Assembly (NCBI RefSeq): GCF_019039035.1
Contig: NZ_JAHNZT010000009.1
Location: 124,001-188,000, forward strand
Direction of reading: 5' to 3'
Length of the DNA: 64,000 bases
From: Citreicoccus inhibens
GTDB taxonomy: Bacteria; Myxococcota; Myxococcia; Myxococcales; Myxococcaceae
Both the position numbers and the translations under genes were made by a program. The notes below the pieces were generated by a model. It was given only the letters and a program-made list of their open reading frames with translations, did no database searches and had not been told where the DNA came from. Shown here piece after piece: positions 15,558-44,059 of the stretch (position 1 is the stretch's first letter; each line of letters starts with the position of its first letter).

Positions 15558-16052
15558 ATGATGACCACCCCGCGCCCCGTCCCGACCGAGCCCCCCGCCG
15601 CGTCCGTCTTCCCTTCCTTCGGTGTGCCGCTGCCCGCCGCGCGCCTCATGGCGCACGCTGGCGCGTGGCTCATGCTGCTGGGGTTGCTCACCGGCGGCTA
15701 TGTGTCCTCCGCCATGACGGGCAAGGTGCCCGCGGATCCCCACATGGCCCTGGCCGCGCACCTCAACGCGCTGATGGGGACCTTCTTCCTGTTGGGCGTG
15801 GCGTGGACGCTGCCCATGCTGCGCTACGGCGCTCGCGGCCAGCACCGGCTCGCCTGGGCTGTCATCGTGGCCAACTTCTCCAACTGGGCGGTCACCTGCG
15901 TGAAGGCCTGGCTCCGCGTATCCGGAGTCGACCTCGTCGGACAGCCCGCCAACGACGCCATCTTTCTCCTGCTCACTGTCAGCGTGGTGCTGCCGGCGCT
16001 GCTCGCCGCCGGGGCGTGGGTCTATGGCTTTCGACGCGCAAGTGTTGGGTAG
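15558..16052 (+). CDS. Hydroxylaminobenzene mutase-like membrane protein
   Basis: The 164-residue integral membrane protein has four predicted helices (about 30-55, 68-88, 97-117 and 132-155). The stretch PADPHMALAAHLNALMGTFF and the overall size resemble the small HabA/HabB hydroxylaminobenzene mutases, which isomerise hydroxylaminobenzene to 2-aminophenol. I infer the relationship from pattern and length only; a physiological role other than nitroarene metabolism is likely in this host. ATG codons at 15558 and 15561 are both possible. It ends just before an unusually AT-rich stretch. Confidence 0.55.
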   Translation: MMTTPRPVPTEPPAASVFPSFGVPLPAARLMAHAGAWLMLLGLLTGGYVSSAMTGKVPADPHMALAAHLNALMGTFFLLGVAWTLPMLRYGARGQHRLAWAVIVANFSNWAVTCVKAWLRVSGVDLVGQPANDAIFLLLTVSVVLPALLAAGAWVYGFRRASVG

Positions 16053-16169
16053 TGAAATGTTCGGCTTTATCTGATTTTTAAGATATTTCTAGTTCAAGTA
16101 TGTCCATGGCCCTCTCCAACCCGTTGCCGGAGCTCGGCCCGCGGTGCGAGCCCACGACAGAGGTGCCTC
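16053..16169 (+). promoter_or_regulatory. AT-rich leader, probable promoter of the FSGR-domain operon
   Basis: Positions 16058-16100 are strikingly AT-rich (for example GATTTTTAAGATATTTCTAG) against a background near 70% GC. The stretch lies 70-110 nt upstream of the 16170 start. Such a drop usually marks a promoter or regulatory region in this kind of genome. I cannot assign -35 and -10 boxes with confidence. Confidence 0.4.
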
Positions 16170-16991
16170 ATGGTGACTGTCGAGCTGGACATCTTCTCGG
16201 GACGTCCCAATCCCCGCTGGACGCTGTCTCGGAAGGAAGCCAACGCGCTGGCCGAGCGTGTGCGGGCGGACCCGTCGCTGTTGTTGCCGATGGACGCGGA
16301 CACGGGGGGATTGGGTTATCGCGGCTTCATCCTCACGGTGCAGGACACGCCGGCCGCGGAAGGGTGGATGCGCGCGGGGTTGCCGTCGCGGGTGCGGCTG
16401 GGTGGGCGATTCCAGCCGGGGGCCATGGAGAGCTCCGCGTTCCTGCTGCACACGGCTGAGCACTCGCGGTTGGACTTGAGGGACCCGGGCGAGGTGTTGG
16501 GCGTGGCCGAGGAGGGCATCACGATGTCGTCGGAGGTGCAGGGGCTCTACGCGGCCTGCGCGACGTCCTATTACACCACCGACACGGACTTCTCGTTCTG
16601 GAACGCGTCGGCCTATCTGACCTACAACAACTGTTACAACTACGCGAGCAACAGCCGCACCAACACCTTCGCGCAGCCGGGGCGCGCGTCGGGTTCGATG
16701 TACAGCGCCATGACGTGCGCGAACGTCGGGGCGGCGGCGACGCGAGATGGTTGGCAGACGGCGTGTCGCGCGGACAACAACCTCAATGTCTGTCTGGTCA
16801 TCTGGCCGAACACGGACTACCACTGGTATCGGCTGGCTGTGAATGGGCACTGGTGCCACAAGCCGGGGCAGACGGCCGCGCGCAACTACGACAACAGCTT
16901 GAATTGGATCACCAACCCCGAGACGTGTGACCGCGGTGGCTACACGACGTTCTGCGGCTACTACCGTGGCTTCAACCTCACGGTGTCGTGA
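16170..16991 (+). CDS. FSGR-domain protein with papain-like C-terminal domain, function unknown
   Basis: The 273-residue protein has two parts. The N-terminal domain (1 to about 125) starts VELDIFSGRPNPRW and contains GLGYRGFIL. The C-terminal domain (about 140-273) is rich in Cys, Tyr and Asn. It contains NNCYNYAS with Cys155, DYHWYRLAVNGHWCHKPGQ with His218, and Asp241 in YDNS. That Cys/His/Asp order fits a papain-like fold; this is inference. There is no signal peptide. The N-terminal domain recurs in the next gene, so the two are a duplicated pair within one operon. Confidence 0.6.
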   Translation: MVTVELDIFSGRPNPRWTLSRKEANALAERVRADPSLLLPMDADTGGLGYRGFILTVQDTPAAEGWMRAGLPSRVRLGGRFQPGAMESSAFLLHTAEHSRLDLRDPGEVLGVAEEGITMSSEVQGLYAACATSYYTTDTDFSFWNASAYLTYNNCYNYASNSRTNTFAQPGRASGSMYSAMTCANVGAAATRDGWQTACRADNNLNVCLVIWPNTDYHWYRLAVNGHWCHKPGQTAARNYDNSLNWITNPETCDRGGYTTFCGYYRGFNLTVS

Positions 16992-17002
16992 GGAGGGGAC
17001 TC

Positions 17003-17458
17003 GTGGCGCGCGCGCTGTGGCTGGTGCTCTGCGGAGCGGGAGTCTGGGGCTGTGCGGCGGGGGGCACGCAGGACGCGCCCACGCCGGCGCGGTCGGAACG
17101 GAGCGAGGTCATGTCGCCGGGGCGCGTGAGCGTGGACATGTTCAGCGGTCGGGAGCCTCCCGCCTGGGCGCTGACGACGGACGAGGCCCAGGCGGCGCGG
17201 GAGTTGGTGAAGTCGTTGCCGGTGGGGACCCATCGGATACCGGACGTGGGGCTGGGCTACCGTGGCTTCGACGTGGCGTGGGCGGATGGCGCGCACGCGA
17301 AGGTGTACCGCGACGTGGTGGTGCTCTCGCAGGGCGAGCGCACGGTGTTGTACCAGGACGCGGGGCGGAAGATGGAGCAGTGGCTGCTGACCGGAGCGAG
17401 GTCGCACCTGGCGCCGGAGTTGTTCGTGGCCTTGGAGTCACAGGTTCAGTCGCCGTAG
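17003..17458 (+). CDS. FSGR-domain lipoprotein
   Basis: Translation from GTG 17003 gives a short lipoprotein signal (MARALWLVLCGAGVWGC), with the acylated Cys at about residue 17. The mature domain has VSVDMFSGREPPAWAL and GLGYRGFDV, matching the N-terminal domain of the gene before it. AGGAGG at 16991-16996 sits 6 nt before GTG 17003 and decides this start. An earlier GTG at 16988, overlapping the previous stop, is also in frame. The product would be a surface-anchored stand-alone copy of the FSGR domain. Function unknown. Confidence 0.65.
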   Translation: MARALWLVLCGAGVWGCAAGGTQDAPTPARSERSEVMSPGRVSVDMFSGREPPAWALTTDEAQAARELVKSLPVGTHRIPDVGLGYRGFDVAWADGAHAKVYRDVVVLSQGERTVLYQDAGRKMEQWLLTGARSHLAPELFVALESQVQSP

Positions 17459-17489
17459 CAACGCAAGCGTTCATCCGCAGGAGGAACCC

Positions 17490-17738
17490 ATGGTTGGAGA
17501 CTCGTCGAACCGCCGTACGTTCCTGAAGGCGATGGGCCTCACCGCCGCCTCCTCGCTGCTGCCGGTCGGGCTGGGCGCGAGCGTGGCTGGAGCCGCCTCG
17601 GTGCCCAGTGGATTGGGCTCGCTGGAGGCGTGGCTCCTGGACACGGGCATCGCCTCGATGGAGGCGGGCGTGTACGTGGCCGCGCGCCAGGAGTTGGGGG
17701 CCCTGCTCTCGGCTCGCGGTGAGGCACTGCCGTACTGA
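17490..17738 (+). CDS. Small Tat-signal protein, 82 aa
   Basis: The product starts with a twin-arginine signal, SNRRTFLKAMGLTAASSLLP (RR at 8-9), and cleavage is likely near VAGAAS at about residue 37. Only about 45 mature residues remain, forming one or two helices (SLEAWLLDTGIASMEAGVY, then ARQELGALLS). A strong AGGAGG precedes the ATG by 6 nt. It follows the FSGR lipoprotein by 31 nt and is likely the last gene of that operon. Export through Tat suggests it folds or binds a partner before transport; it may carry another protein with it. Confidence 0.65.
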   Translation: MVGDSSNRRTFLKAMGLTAASSLLPVGLGASVAGAASVPSGLGSLEAWLLDTGIASMEAGVYVAARQELGALLSARGEALPY

Positions 17739-17784
17739 GGTGAGTTTCACGGAGGAGCACGGAGTGGGTCATGCTGCTCGCGCT

Positions 17785-40923: not shown

Positions 40924-41358
40924 CTAGATCCTGTGAACTGGTTCTCCATCGGCCATGCGTCGGAGGCGCTCGTCTGATCGCCTCCAAGACGCAGAAGGAA
41001 GTCGTCCTCCTGTGGAGAAATAGTACTCGGCGGCAAGTACAGCCTGTTTGACGTCAACCAGGGCGTCGCGGGTGAGCGTTTGCATCCGTGTCCCAACGAC
41101 ACATTCGATCAGGTCAGCTGATTGGGTCGAATCAACAAGGTCGTATTCTTCAACCTCTCCGACAGCGCGAATAGAAATGAAAAGTCCAGAGGGTTTGCAG
41201 CGACTGATAATCATGAATTGATCGCTGGTTTCTGACTCGCCCATGGAGAGCGTGCATACTTCGCCAAGAGATAGGCGCTCAATCGCATCGAGTACCAAGC
41301 TCCACTCTGTGGACTCCTCATCACCATCGACTCCAACGTATTTTACGAAGCTCATCAT
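40924..41358 (-). CDS. Imm1-like immunity protein
   Basis: The 144-residue cytoplasmic protein carries acidic surface segments (VGVDGDEESTEWSL) and ends its core with AAEYYFSTGGRLPSASW. This resembles the closing helix and Trp of Imm1-family immunity proteins. From memory, Imm1 is commonly found beside toxins of the deaminase superfamily, which matches the gene upstream. Its ATG overlaps the toxin stop (ATGATGA), so it is translated with the toxin, as expected for protection of the producer. It should bind and inhibit the deaminase domain. The assignment rests on pattern and context. Confidence 0.65.
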   Translation of the reverse strand: MMSFVKYVGVDGDEESTEWSLVLDAIERLSLGEVCTLSMGESETSDQFMIISRCKPSGLFISIRAVGEVEEYDLVDSTQSADLIECVVGTRMQTLTRDALVDVKQAVLAAEYYFSTGGRLPSASWRRSDERLRRMADGEPVHRI

Positions 41359-42674
41359 TGCCCCAATGGGTAGACGCGCCCTTCCGGGTACTTAGGATCA
41401 TGCACCTCTACCTCTTTCAGTCCCAGGATATGCCTCGCATTTGAGATTGATCGCAAGCAATAAGGACACAACTCCCTGTCAACGAAGAGCCGCGCTCTCT
41501 TGCCCTGCGCGTTATCCATGAATGCTCGATAGAAGACGGTCCCTTCGGCATGATCAACGAATGGGACAGTGGCGCCCCCATTTGCCCCATTCTCCAATGC
41601 CGCCTCCCTGACTAGCTCAAGAAAGGCCGGGCGATCTGATTTTGGAATCCCTGCCTCTTGTCCAAAGTATCGCCGACCGTCGATTTCCAGCATTGCCAGA
41701 GTTGACGTGTCCCCGCTCGAGCCTGCACGAGGAAGTCCTAGCTGCGCTCTCCGCTGCGCAAGGAGCATCGATGCTTGCCGATATTCCGCCGAACGGAAAT
41801 TGATCCGTATGGGCGGAGGTATCCCTGGCACATTTGTCGCCAGCCCCTCGGCCTCAATATCGGAAAACATCCAGGTTGGCAGGTGCTCAACTGGGAGGCT
41901 CTGGCGAAGTTCGCCATAGCCATATTGGGCGCCAACTGCACCAAGCGCAACGAGCGATGCCCCATACACGCATCGCCCATAGTCTCCACTCGAAGATACT
42001 GCAACTTGCCCTGCGCCTTGCCCAATTGCCTGCCCGCTAAAATACAGCGCAACCCCGACAGCCGCCACTTTCCCCAGTCGCCCAGTCTTCCCTGTCAGCG
42101 CGAGGGCAGGCGGAACAGCGCACATGTCAATGCCGCGTTCGAGTGCCCCGAAATGGTCGATCTGATCTAGTGTGCGGACGTGGTTGGGGTCTTCATATGT
42201 CTGGGATGCGACATCCAGGGCGTAGCCGAGCGCCACTCCTGCTGCCAAGCCTTTTGGGCCGCCAGTGTAAAGTCCAATTGCGGCGGCTGTCGAGGTCATC
42301 TTTCCTCGGACTTCGCCTTGATTCATTGCGAGTGTGACGTTCTCTACCTGTCGCGAGTCTTGACAGAATTTGATTGTCAGGCCGGTAAGATCTGCAGCGC
42401 CACACATGAGCGCCAAGCCATTCCCGGGCGCCGAGGGCTCTAGTGATTGACGTCCATCCGGATCTGTATGGCGAAGCGGATTTGAGCTTGCATACAGCCA
42501 GGGCGTGAATTCAATGGGTTGGGGTAGGCGTTGCTGGGTCGCGAGGATGTCCCCCAGCAACGGGTCCTCGGATAGGAAGCGGCCCGTTCCTGCGTCGTAC
42601 CATCGAGCTGATGCGGTGATGGGGAAAATAATCAAGAGCAGTAGGTATAGATGTTTTGAGAGTGCTCTTTTCAT
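41355..42674 (-). CDS. Orphan RHS-tip protein with C-terminal deaminase-like toxin domain
   Basis: The 439-residue protein begins with a hydrophobic signal-like helix (MKRALSKHLYLLLLIIFPIT). It then enters directly the RHS core end: RWYDAGTGRFLSEDPL, followed by WLYASSNPLRHTDPDGR (about 24-75), which is where full RHS proteins cut off their toxin. A glycine-rich hydrophobic region follows. The last 100 residues hold HAEG (His375, Glu377) and CPYC (Cys403, Cys406), the zinc motif of cytidine deaminase-fold toxins, closest in pattern to SCP1.201/DddA-like members. It lacks the about 1000-residue RHS cage. It overlaps its neighbours on both sides by stop/start. Confidence 0.75.
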   Translation of the reverse strand: MKRALSKHLYLLLLIIFPITASARWYDAGTGRFLSEDPLLGDILATQQRLPQPIEFTPWLYASSNPLRHTDPDGRQSLEPSAPGNGLALMCGAADLTGLTIKFCQDSRQVENVTLAMNQGEVRGKMTSTAAAIGLYTGGPKGLAAGVALGYALDVASQTYEDPNHVRTLDQIDHFGALERGIDMCAVPPALALTGKTGRLGKVAAVGVALYFSGQAIGQGAGQVAVSSSGDYGRCVYGASLVALGAVGAQYGYGELRQSLPVEHLPTWMFSDIEAEGLATNVPGIPPPIRINFRSAEYRQASMLLAQRRAQLGLPRAGSSGDTSTLAMLEIDGRRYFGQEAGIPKSDRPAFLELVREAALENGANGGATVPFVDHAEGTVFYRAFMDNAQGKRARLFVDRELCPYCLRSISNARHILGLKEVEVHDPKYPEGRVYPLGQ

Positions 42675-43876
42675 TGGGGCTCACCCATATCCAACGGGCT
42701 GAACTGAGCGCAGCGATTGCCAGGAGCGGGTCCGCAGAGTTGCGAGCAAACGCGCAGGACGCTCCCGGGTTCGTGCGATGCGCGATTGAAGACAATTGGG
42801 TCTACTGCCAAGGCAAACTGGATGGGCTTTCCGCCAGGTGTGAATAGCGTAGATAAATCAAACGCCGGGGGTTCTGGGCGCCTTGCTTCTGCCTCTGTTC
42901 CCCCTAGTGTAGATACCCTTTTCCAGTAGTCGCGAGCCAGCGGGCGGGGTGCCCCAAGCCGCGTCGTGATTTGTGCGTAGCTCAGAGCAAGTCGTGTTGC
43001 CTCCCTTGCTCGTGCAGCCTTGAGAGGCGGCCCATTCGTATCCGTTCCCCTCACTGATACCTGCATGGCCGCCAGATAGTTATGGGCAAGCGCGAGATTC
43101 CAATTGGCTGTCACGCTGCGCGGATGGACCGTGAGGGTGAGTTCCGAAAGGCGCGCAGCAAGCCCGATGTTCCAATCCTTCATGAGGCGGGCCGCAGCCT
43201 CTGCAATCAGTGCTCCCAGCAGTTCCCTTTTGGCGAGGGAGCGCATCATGGAGCCAGAAGACCGTGCCTCCTTGGGAACCTCCAAGTCTAGAATAATCCT
43301 CTCGTCATCCACCTCACCCCCACCAGAGGTTGCCTCGATGTTAGATCGATATTTCCCGTCTGAGTAGCGCAGGAAGAAATGGTGAGGGGCTTCTACCATG
43401 GCCACTGGGTAATTGAGGCGTTCAGCTACGGCGTACCAGAGCACCGGAAGAGAAACACAGTTGCCTTTCTTTGATTCAAGCAGTCGCCATAGGGAGGAAG
43501 CATCGACCCGCTCGCCTAGTGGGTCAGCCTTGTCGTAGGCATAGTTGTTCTCTCGATAGATCACTTGGTTGATGGCGCGAATCCTGTAATCAGGGTCTGT
43601 GCGTCCGCCCACCAGGGTGCGCACCTGGTCTGCAAGTAGGTTAATGCGACGCAGCCCTTCGCTGACGTTGGTGTCTGGATCCACGAATGAGCCCAAGCGC
43701 AAGGACGCTTCGCCGATGCTTAGGCGCTCCTCCGGGAGTGCTAGCAATTCCTTTGCAGCGCGCACCATGGGTGGTTCCTCTGTGGCCCGCGCAGGGGTTG
43801 GCCACCAGAGAAGTAGGGCGATGGCTGAGAGTAACCCTCTGAATGCGCTGCCGAGATTGGGTTGCAAGCTGACCAT
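42671..43876 (-). CDS. Secreted transglutaminase-like (SirB1-type) protein, first gene of the toxin operon
   Basis: The 401-residue product has a signal peptide (FRGLLSAIALLLWWPTPARA). The transglutaminase-like domain (about 60-185) shows RENNYAYDKADPLGERVDA, KKGNCVSLPVLWY with Cys140, and VEAPHHFFLRY with His165/166. This is the pattern of SirB1-like cysteine hydrolase folds. The C-terminal half is helical, with TPR-like NWNLALAHNYLAAM. Its TGA overlaps the ATG of the RHS toxin gene. It could process or escort the toxin; that is inference. ATG 43876 fits the signal peptide; the frame is open upstream. Confidence 0.75.
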   Translation of the reverse strand: MVSLQPNLGSAFRGLLSAIALLLWWPTPARATEEPPMVRAAKELLALPEERLSIGEASLRLGSFVDPDTNVSEGLRRINLLADQVRTLVGGRTDPDYRIRAINQVIYRENNYAYDKADPLGERVDASSLWRLLESKKGNCVSLPVLWYAVAERLNYPVAMVEAPHHFFLRYSDGKYRSNIEATSGGGEVDDERIILDLEVPKEARSSGSMMRSLAKRELLGALIAEAAARLMKDWNIGLAARLSELTLTVHPRSVTANWNLALAHNYLAAMQVSVRGTDTNGPPLKAARAREATRLALSYAQITTRLGAPRPLARDYWKRVSTLGGTEAEARRPEPPAFDLSTLFTPGGKPIQFALAVDPIVFNRASHEPGSVLRVCSQLCGPAPGNRCAQFSPLDMGEPQ

Positions 43877-43936
43877 GGTTGTGCGGTGGTAGGGATACCA
43901 TGCCCGGCTGACGCCGAGAATGCGGTATGTCACTAC

Positions 43937-43962
43937 AGAGGTGCTTCTTGAGAAGCATCTCT
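43937..43962. promoter_or_regulatory. 26-nt inverted repeat upstream of the toxin operon
   Basis: AGAGGTGCTTCT and AGAAGCATCTCT form a 12-pair inverted repeat (one G-T) with a 2-nt centre. It lies 61 nt upstream of the transglutaminase-like start and about 100 nt upstream of the divergent PD40 gene. The position fits an operator for either promoter. A hairpin in RNA is less likely with so small a loop. Confidence 0.4.
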
Positions 43963-44059
43963 GCGTGCCGTCCTTTTGCGCGTCGAGAGTTGTGCGCCGG
44001 GGCGCATGTCGGGTCCGCGGATGTAGAACAGTAGGGCGCTTGGGCGATATGACCTTGGC

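Follow-up and report, generated by a model that had tools for sequence, protein, structure and literature searches.

An operon of Citreicoccus inhibens pairs a predicted papain-like hydrolase with a lipoprotein that carries the hydrolase's N-terminal FSGR domain

Why would a protein that resembles an enzyme and has no signal peptide be encoded next to a lipoprotein that shares its N-terminal domain and a tiny protein with a twin-arginine signal? The three genes lie in a 9.0-Mb Myxococcaceae genome, that of Citreicoccus inhibens, within the 64,000-nucleotide stretch of DNA that we analyzed as a whole (the window). All three predicted open reading frames are present where they had been placed (Table 1). 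They run in the same direction, the start of gene 2 overlaps the stop of gene 1 as GTGA and AGGAGG precedes gene 3; the three probably form one operon. The AT-rich leader that had been noted ahead of the genes is real: 60 bp of it reach an AT content of 68%, more than any other 60 bp in the window (mean 31%), and a similar stretch lies upstream of gene 1 in relatives whose flanks are unrelated (58–68% in most, 47–53% in two). When read by eye, the leaders of several relatives show TTGAC...TATTTC/TATCC; a strict sigma-70 scan and a terminator scan found nothing above chance.

Relative to the sister species, the operon differs mostly at third codon positions (for gene 1, 16, 5 and 28 differences at codon positions 1, 2 and 3), as expected for genes kept by selection. 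In other genera (Corallococcus and Myxococcus relatives), BLASTN finds similarity over approximately 16139–17741 and not in the adjoining flanks, whose genes are common to the sister species only; beyond the operon, the same comparison gives only scattered matches at ~13–14 kb in the window. Because DNA similarity between genera ends at the operon edges, the operon looks like a self-contained accessory cassette. Of 195 Myxococcota genomes, 20 have a relative of gene 1 (E up to 1e-3). Elsewhere in the window, positions 41001–44000 have a G+C content of 55–58% against a window mean of ~69%, which suggests an acquired segment.

Table 1. Features of the operon and its leader, with positions in the window
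Feature	Position	Strand	Description
AT-rich leader	16040..16109	+	Probable promoter region; TATTTC inside is a -10-like element
Gene 1	16170..16991	+	273 aa; no signal peptide; FSGR domain followed by papain-like domain
Gene 1 N-terminal FSGR domain, residues 1-118	16170..16523	+	Motifs FSGRPNP, LGYRGF
Gene 1 C-terminal papain-like (NlpC/P60-like) domain, residues 136-273	16575..16988	+	Predicted from AlphaFold2 model and PDB matches
Cys155 codon	16632..16634	+	Putative nucleophile at helix N-terminus; invariant 38/38; modelled helix begins here
His218 codon	16821..16823	+	Putative catalytic histidine on beta strand; invariant 38/38; modelled strand 216-222
His230 codon	16857..16859	+	Candidate third residue with NlpC/P60-like CHH spacing; His 35, Gln 2, Asp 1 of 38
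Asp241 codon	16890..16892	+	Third residue of the original prediction; Asp 36, Gly 2 of 38
Gene 2	16988..17458	+	156 aa; lipoprotein, FSGR domain only
Gene 2 lipobox cysteine Cys22	17051..17053	+	Kept in all close-family myxobacterial gene 2 copies
Gene 2 FSGR domain, residues 44-154	17117..17449	+	Profile E 4e-32
Gene 3	17490..17738	+	82 aa; Tat-signal mini-protein
Twin-arginine codons R8-R9 of SNRRTFLK	17511..17516	+	Invariant in 14 aligned copies

In sequence-library searches with gene 1, we found nothing above cut-off, and no Pfam or NCBIfam family matched it above cut-off, C10 families included. PF00877 (NlpC/P60, C40) does not match gene 1 even with E allowed to reach 5, nor relatives of the catalytic domain with E allowed to reach 1; the two main families of the operon, catalytic and FSGR, are both without a Pfam model above cut-off. 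A first full-length AlphaFold2 model, built with 18 mostly close relatives, had pLDDT values mostly below 50 in the catalytic domain and was discarded; fold searches with it were uninformative. With 34 diverse relatives, including sequences from Acidobacteriota, Alphaproteobacteria, another proteobacterial order and phage contigs, the catalytic domain is modelled at a pLDDT of 84.8 and a pTM of 0.82. In the Foldseek list of PDB matches to this model, MepS and related peptidases are on top, with a best E of 0.14 that falls short of usual significance, and the VIA-align list consists almost wholly of NlpC/P60, T6SS amidase, C39 or other papain-like proteins, with Z of at most 4.1, also short of the usual threshold. 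The entries ranked highest by the two programs are MepS, Tae3, Tae1, LytE, CwlO and further NlpC/P60 or papain-like proteins. The individual matches are weak, but we judge, by eye rather than against a control list, that the agreement of the lists goes beyond chance expectation. The C-terminal domain is modelled as a papain-like fold with NlpC/P60-type proteins as its best, though weak, structural matches, as the original prediction of a papain-like domain had it, and gene 1 probably encodes a papain-like hydrolase, predicted to cut cell wall or protein.

Strong structural matches to the catalytic domain come from viral proteins in BFVD: F2Y2U4 (E 4.8e-9), M1HB16 (1.2e-4) and A0A1V0SF80 (2.8e-3), the last from the giant virus Hokovirus HKV1. 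Mobile elements hold further relatives. An Anaeroplasmataceae phage (NatCom_34063, L044:3252-6283) encodes, close to a holin gene, a 732-aa fusion of the catalytic domain to a trypsin-like domain; the gene after it is for a lipoprotein-like protein that has no FSGR. Four viral contigs of large phages (121–166 kb; L129, L130, L131, L140) encode stand-alone leaderless catalytic-domain proteins of ~180 aa, one of them frame-broken, and a contig classed as viral (L047:5544-6450) has a frame-broken remnant of an FSGR-catalytic gene. On a Vibrio sp. plasmid (NZ_MZ496297.1, L058:520-4600), a distant catalytic-domain relative follows genes for a C45-family peptidase and an asparaginase-domain protein, neighbors that suggest an amide-hydrolysis gene cluster.

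One Pfam family, DUF7689 (PF24738), comes near its cut-off in remote relatives: E is 0.0012 for L135, 0.029 for the full-length phage fusion L044 and 9e-4 for one member of the set A2. Among the matches listed, relatives reach at most 19.9 bits against a gathering cut-off of 22.6 bits. The remote relatives share the motif order of DUF7689 (NC-aromatic, PG, His, W.xK.G); unlike them, gene 1 itself has no DUF7689 match, and a comparison of its profile to that of DUF7689 domains from myxobacteria yielded a probability below 1%, although the motif was aligned as expected (DYHWYR...SHKPG with THGAL...SKIG). A literature search on DUF7689 found no paper. In the Myxococcaceae genus g19 (L111-L124), DUF7689 is common as the C-terminal domain of ~450–590-aa proteins. 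Matches to AMPK1_CBM (0.028), DUF7629, Imm53 and Toxin_R_bind_N (on the LamG part of a relative) were rejected as below cut-off or due to the LamG fold.

The domain that genes 1 and 2 had been predicted to have in common is found in both by an FSGR profile (residues 1–117 of gene 1 at E 9e-30, residues 44–154 of gene 2). Gene 2 has a signal peptide up to Cys22, followed by a Ser/Ala/Pro-rich tether; its description as an FSGR-only lipoprotein agrees with the conservation of this cysteine, though the lipobox is the non-canonical VWGC. In the first full-length model, the FSGR domain of gene 1 had pLDDT values mostly of 65–90 over residues 1–100, with 53 at residues 41–50 and 54–56 at residues 101–120, and searches using that model found no recognizable fold relative for it. 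In an FSGR tree of limited resolution, most copies of gene 2, whether from Myxococcota, Acidobacteriota or Alphaproteobacteria, fall into one group (85/86), apart from gene 1 domains; because of this grouping, the pairing of an enzyme with an FSGR-only protein looks old, rather than the product of repeated local duplication. An AU test did not reject a tree in which the FSGR domains of all gene 1 proteins form a single clade (p 0.41).

We asked how regularly the two genes occur together. There are 23 FSGR-only genes in Myxococcota, and 19 of the 20 that could be assessed lie directly downstream of an enzyme gene; the count leaves out G065, G076 and G087 (L097, L098, L096), which have N-masked sequence directly upstream. 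In the Acidobacteriota and Alphaproteobacteria, all seven enzyme loci of the clade (L012, L013, L014, L107, L108, L128, L137) have an FSGR-only gene directly downstream. Homologues of the two genes are thus neighbors as a rule, in three phyla, and not rarely. Some enzymes have no FSGR domain of their own and yet have an FSGR-only neighbor: the catalytic domain is joined to LamG at L028, L029, L030, L031 and L067, to a signal peptide at L032 and to TIG at L107, with LamG (L028) and TIG (L107) confirmed by Pfam. Because a partner that bound nothing but FSGR domains would have no reason to persist beside enzymes without FSGR, the FSGR-only partner most likely recognizes the catalytic domain. Not every relative has such a partner: L005, L006, L011 and L035 lack it and keep gene 3 alone, and family members at L036/L037, on Rhizobium and Streptomyces plasmids and in phages are also without one. 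Plasmids searched for an FSGR-only homologue of the one at L032 had none.

Judged by eye, the export signals of the two partners go together. Outside the myxobacteria, a leaderless enzyme has a leaderless partner (L012, L013, L014, L108 and L137), and an exported enzyme has an exported partner at L028, L032 and L107. In the close myxobacterial family, a leaderless enzyme is paired with a lipoprotein and the operon carries gene 3; L027 is an exception: its enzyme is leaderless and its partner exported, yet it lacks gene 3.

These data suggest how the two proteins may work together. Gene 1 would be a cysteine hydrolase with a papain-like fold of NlpC/P60 type, either a peptidase or an amidase, and its N-terminal FSGR domain would most likely be a propeptide that holds it inactive inside the cell. 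Since our searches found no recognizable fold relative of the FSGR domain, this propeptide role rests on position and pairing. Gene 2 would be a free, membrane-anchored copy of the domain; acting in trans, it would bind the catalytic domain and, as a propeptide-like inhibitor, shield the envelope of the producer. The original prediction had left decoy, inhibitor and receptor open as relationships; the inhibitor is now favored, and a tether or decoy that acts through FSGR–FSGR contact is disfavored by the FSGR-less enzymes that keep their partner.

The main rival, which overlaps with the inhibitor reading, is that gene 1 is a peptidoglycan amidase or endopeptidase effector delivered by contact (for example, by a T6SS) and that gene 2 is an envelope immunity protein. 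A leaderless NlpC/P60-like protein with Tae1 and Tae3 among its matches, an adjoining partner that is exported and a patchy, self-contained cassette would all be consistent with this. However, we saw no secretion genes by eye among the immediate neighbors (14.7–19.3 kb), gene 2 is homologous to the enzyme's own N-terminus, and the two proteins are both leaderless in several phyla and elsewhere both have ordinary signal peptides. We regard an effector with its immunity protein as unlikely. Distinctly unlikely, in our estimate, is the proposal that FSGR is a dimerization or ligand module through which gene 2 keeps gene 1 tethered at the membrane without inhibiting it. The shared domain and the lipoprotein nature of gene 2 fit such an anchor or receptor; against it, the enzymes at L028, L032 and L107 keep an FSGR-only partner while lacking FSGR themselves, and the partner at these loci and in other phyla is soluble or leaderless and hence no anchor.

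Gene 3 offers a candidate export route for gene 1. Gene 3 had been called a tiny Tat-exported protein, and its SNRRTFLK twin-arginine motif agrees with this, though its score against Pfam TAT_signal is 19.7 bits, under the 22.7-bit cut-off. Its mature part is only ~45 residues long and its C-terminal half is conserved (ELWLLDTG...LYxxARQ). Across 33 genomes, all 15 gene 3 sites lie beside gene 1 (one is split over two contigs), and away from gene 1 the same genomes gave a single marginal match (E 0.009). Gene 3 has two features of a Tat hitchhiker carrier: it is a small twin-arginine protein, and it is obligately linked to a leaderless partner. The Tat pathway exports folded complexes. Because gene 3 occurs only beside gene 1, we suggest, by analogy with MelC1/MelC2, that it is a candidate carrier and that the gene 1 protein, which has no leader, would leave the cell in folded form by hitchhiking on gene 3. 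It had been predicted that gene 1 either acts inside or leaves by another route; the second option thereby gains a candidate. The same linkage, together with the conserved C-terminal half, could also mean that gene 3 is a substrate or product, a small Tat-exported peptide processed by gene 1. This seems quite improbable: gene 3 is absent from the distant enzyme–FSGR pairs and hence is not a general substrate, and a leaderless gene 1 protein would meet gene 3 outside only if it were itself exported.

The residues of the putative active site bear on whether gene 1 is an enzyme at all. In 38 sequences, Cys155, Asp216, His218, Trp228 and Lys231 are invariant. In the predicted triad of Cys155, His218 and Asp241, the first two residues are thus conserved throughout and the third is uncertain, with Gly in place of Asp241 in two remote members. 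In MepS, His119 and His131 are 12 residues apart, the same spacing as between His218 and His230 of gene 1. NlpC/P60 enzymes have a Cys-His-His triad (PMC10318531). Because of this triad and this spacing, the aligned sequences make His230 at least as good a candidate for the third residue as Asp241. An argument from disulfides was tried and rejected: Cys183/Cys262 and Cys208/Cys229 co-vary strongly by simple counting, but on the tree there are no more than four independent pairs, and the Cys208/Cys229 pair is confined to a single clade. Cys183/Cys262 was dropped as a sign of an oxidizing compartment because there are too few independent events. That the catalytic domain is an inactive binding module could be argued from the weak structural match and the uncertain third residue, but is highly improbable with Cys155 and His218 kept in all sequences from several phyla and phages.

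Taken together, we favor a scheme in which gene 1 is a hydrolase with an FSGR propeptide, gene 2 its inhibitor and gene 3 its Tat carrier; as a whole it is tentative and, in our estimate, falls a little short of probable. It builds on the shared domain, the papain-like model, the invariant cysteine and histidine, the adjacency of the pair in three phyla and the linkage of gene 3 to gene 1. From these we infer the catalytic activity, its substrate, the prodomain role, the inhibition and the co-export through Tat. A bolder claim is that the genes represent an undescribed module that crosses phyla: a new NlpC/P60-like family, with FSGR serving both as a propeptide in cis and as a membrane-anchored inhibitor in trans, and with a Tat mini-carrier recruited in myxobacteria to export a leaderless zymogen. 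We consider this somewhat unlikely. If true, it would add an enzyme family and an inhibitor domain, both new and both without a Pfam model. The two would form a portable pair that recurs in soil-dwelling and predatory bacteria, the enzyme having relatives in phages and a giant virus. The operon would also illustrate how a cysteine hydrolase that has no leader can leave the cell folded with its producer still protected. With three small genes and one candidate each for nucleophile, inhibitor and carrier, the operon would be a simple test bed.

Parts of this scheme have counterparts in known systems. Like the NlpC/P60 superfamily (MepS/Spr, Tae1, Tae3, LytE), gene 1 is predicted to have a compact papain-like fold, with a Cys at a helix start, a His on a strand and another His 12 residues on; unlike these proteins, it has no PF00877 match and its structural Z is only ~4. 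For the export route, the precedent is the tyrosinase of Streptomyces, in which MelC2 is exported through Tat by hitchhiking on MelC1 (PMC2758597). There, too, a leaderless enzyme is encoded beside a small Tat-signal protein; however, the proteins are unrelated to those described here, MelC1 also inserts copper, and the co-export of gene 1 with gene 3 is our proposal. For the inhibitor, one precedent is SpeB–Spi (streptopain, MEROPS C10), in which Spi is a propeptide analogue (PMC2873492). As in our operon, a papain-like enzyme has a homologue of its N-terminal domain encoded next door. In contrast to SpeB, gene 1 has no detectable C10 similarity and a compact NlpC/P60-like core, its partner in the operon is a lipoprotein accompanied by a Tat mini-protein, and the inhibition is proposed. 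In the bfp/bfi operons of Bacteroides fragilis, C10 cysteine proteases are co-transcribed with small exported inhibitors, lipoprotein or periplasmic, some with lipoprotein signals (PMC2873492). In contrast to gene 2, the bfi inhibitors resemble staphostatins rather than a propeptide, and the bfp proteases have lipoprotein signals of their own. By analogy with these systems, the best-supported reading is that the logic of SpeB–Spi and of the B. fragilis operons has been reached here with unrelated proteins.
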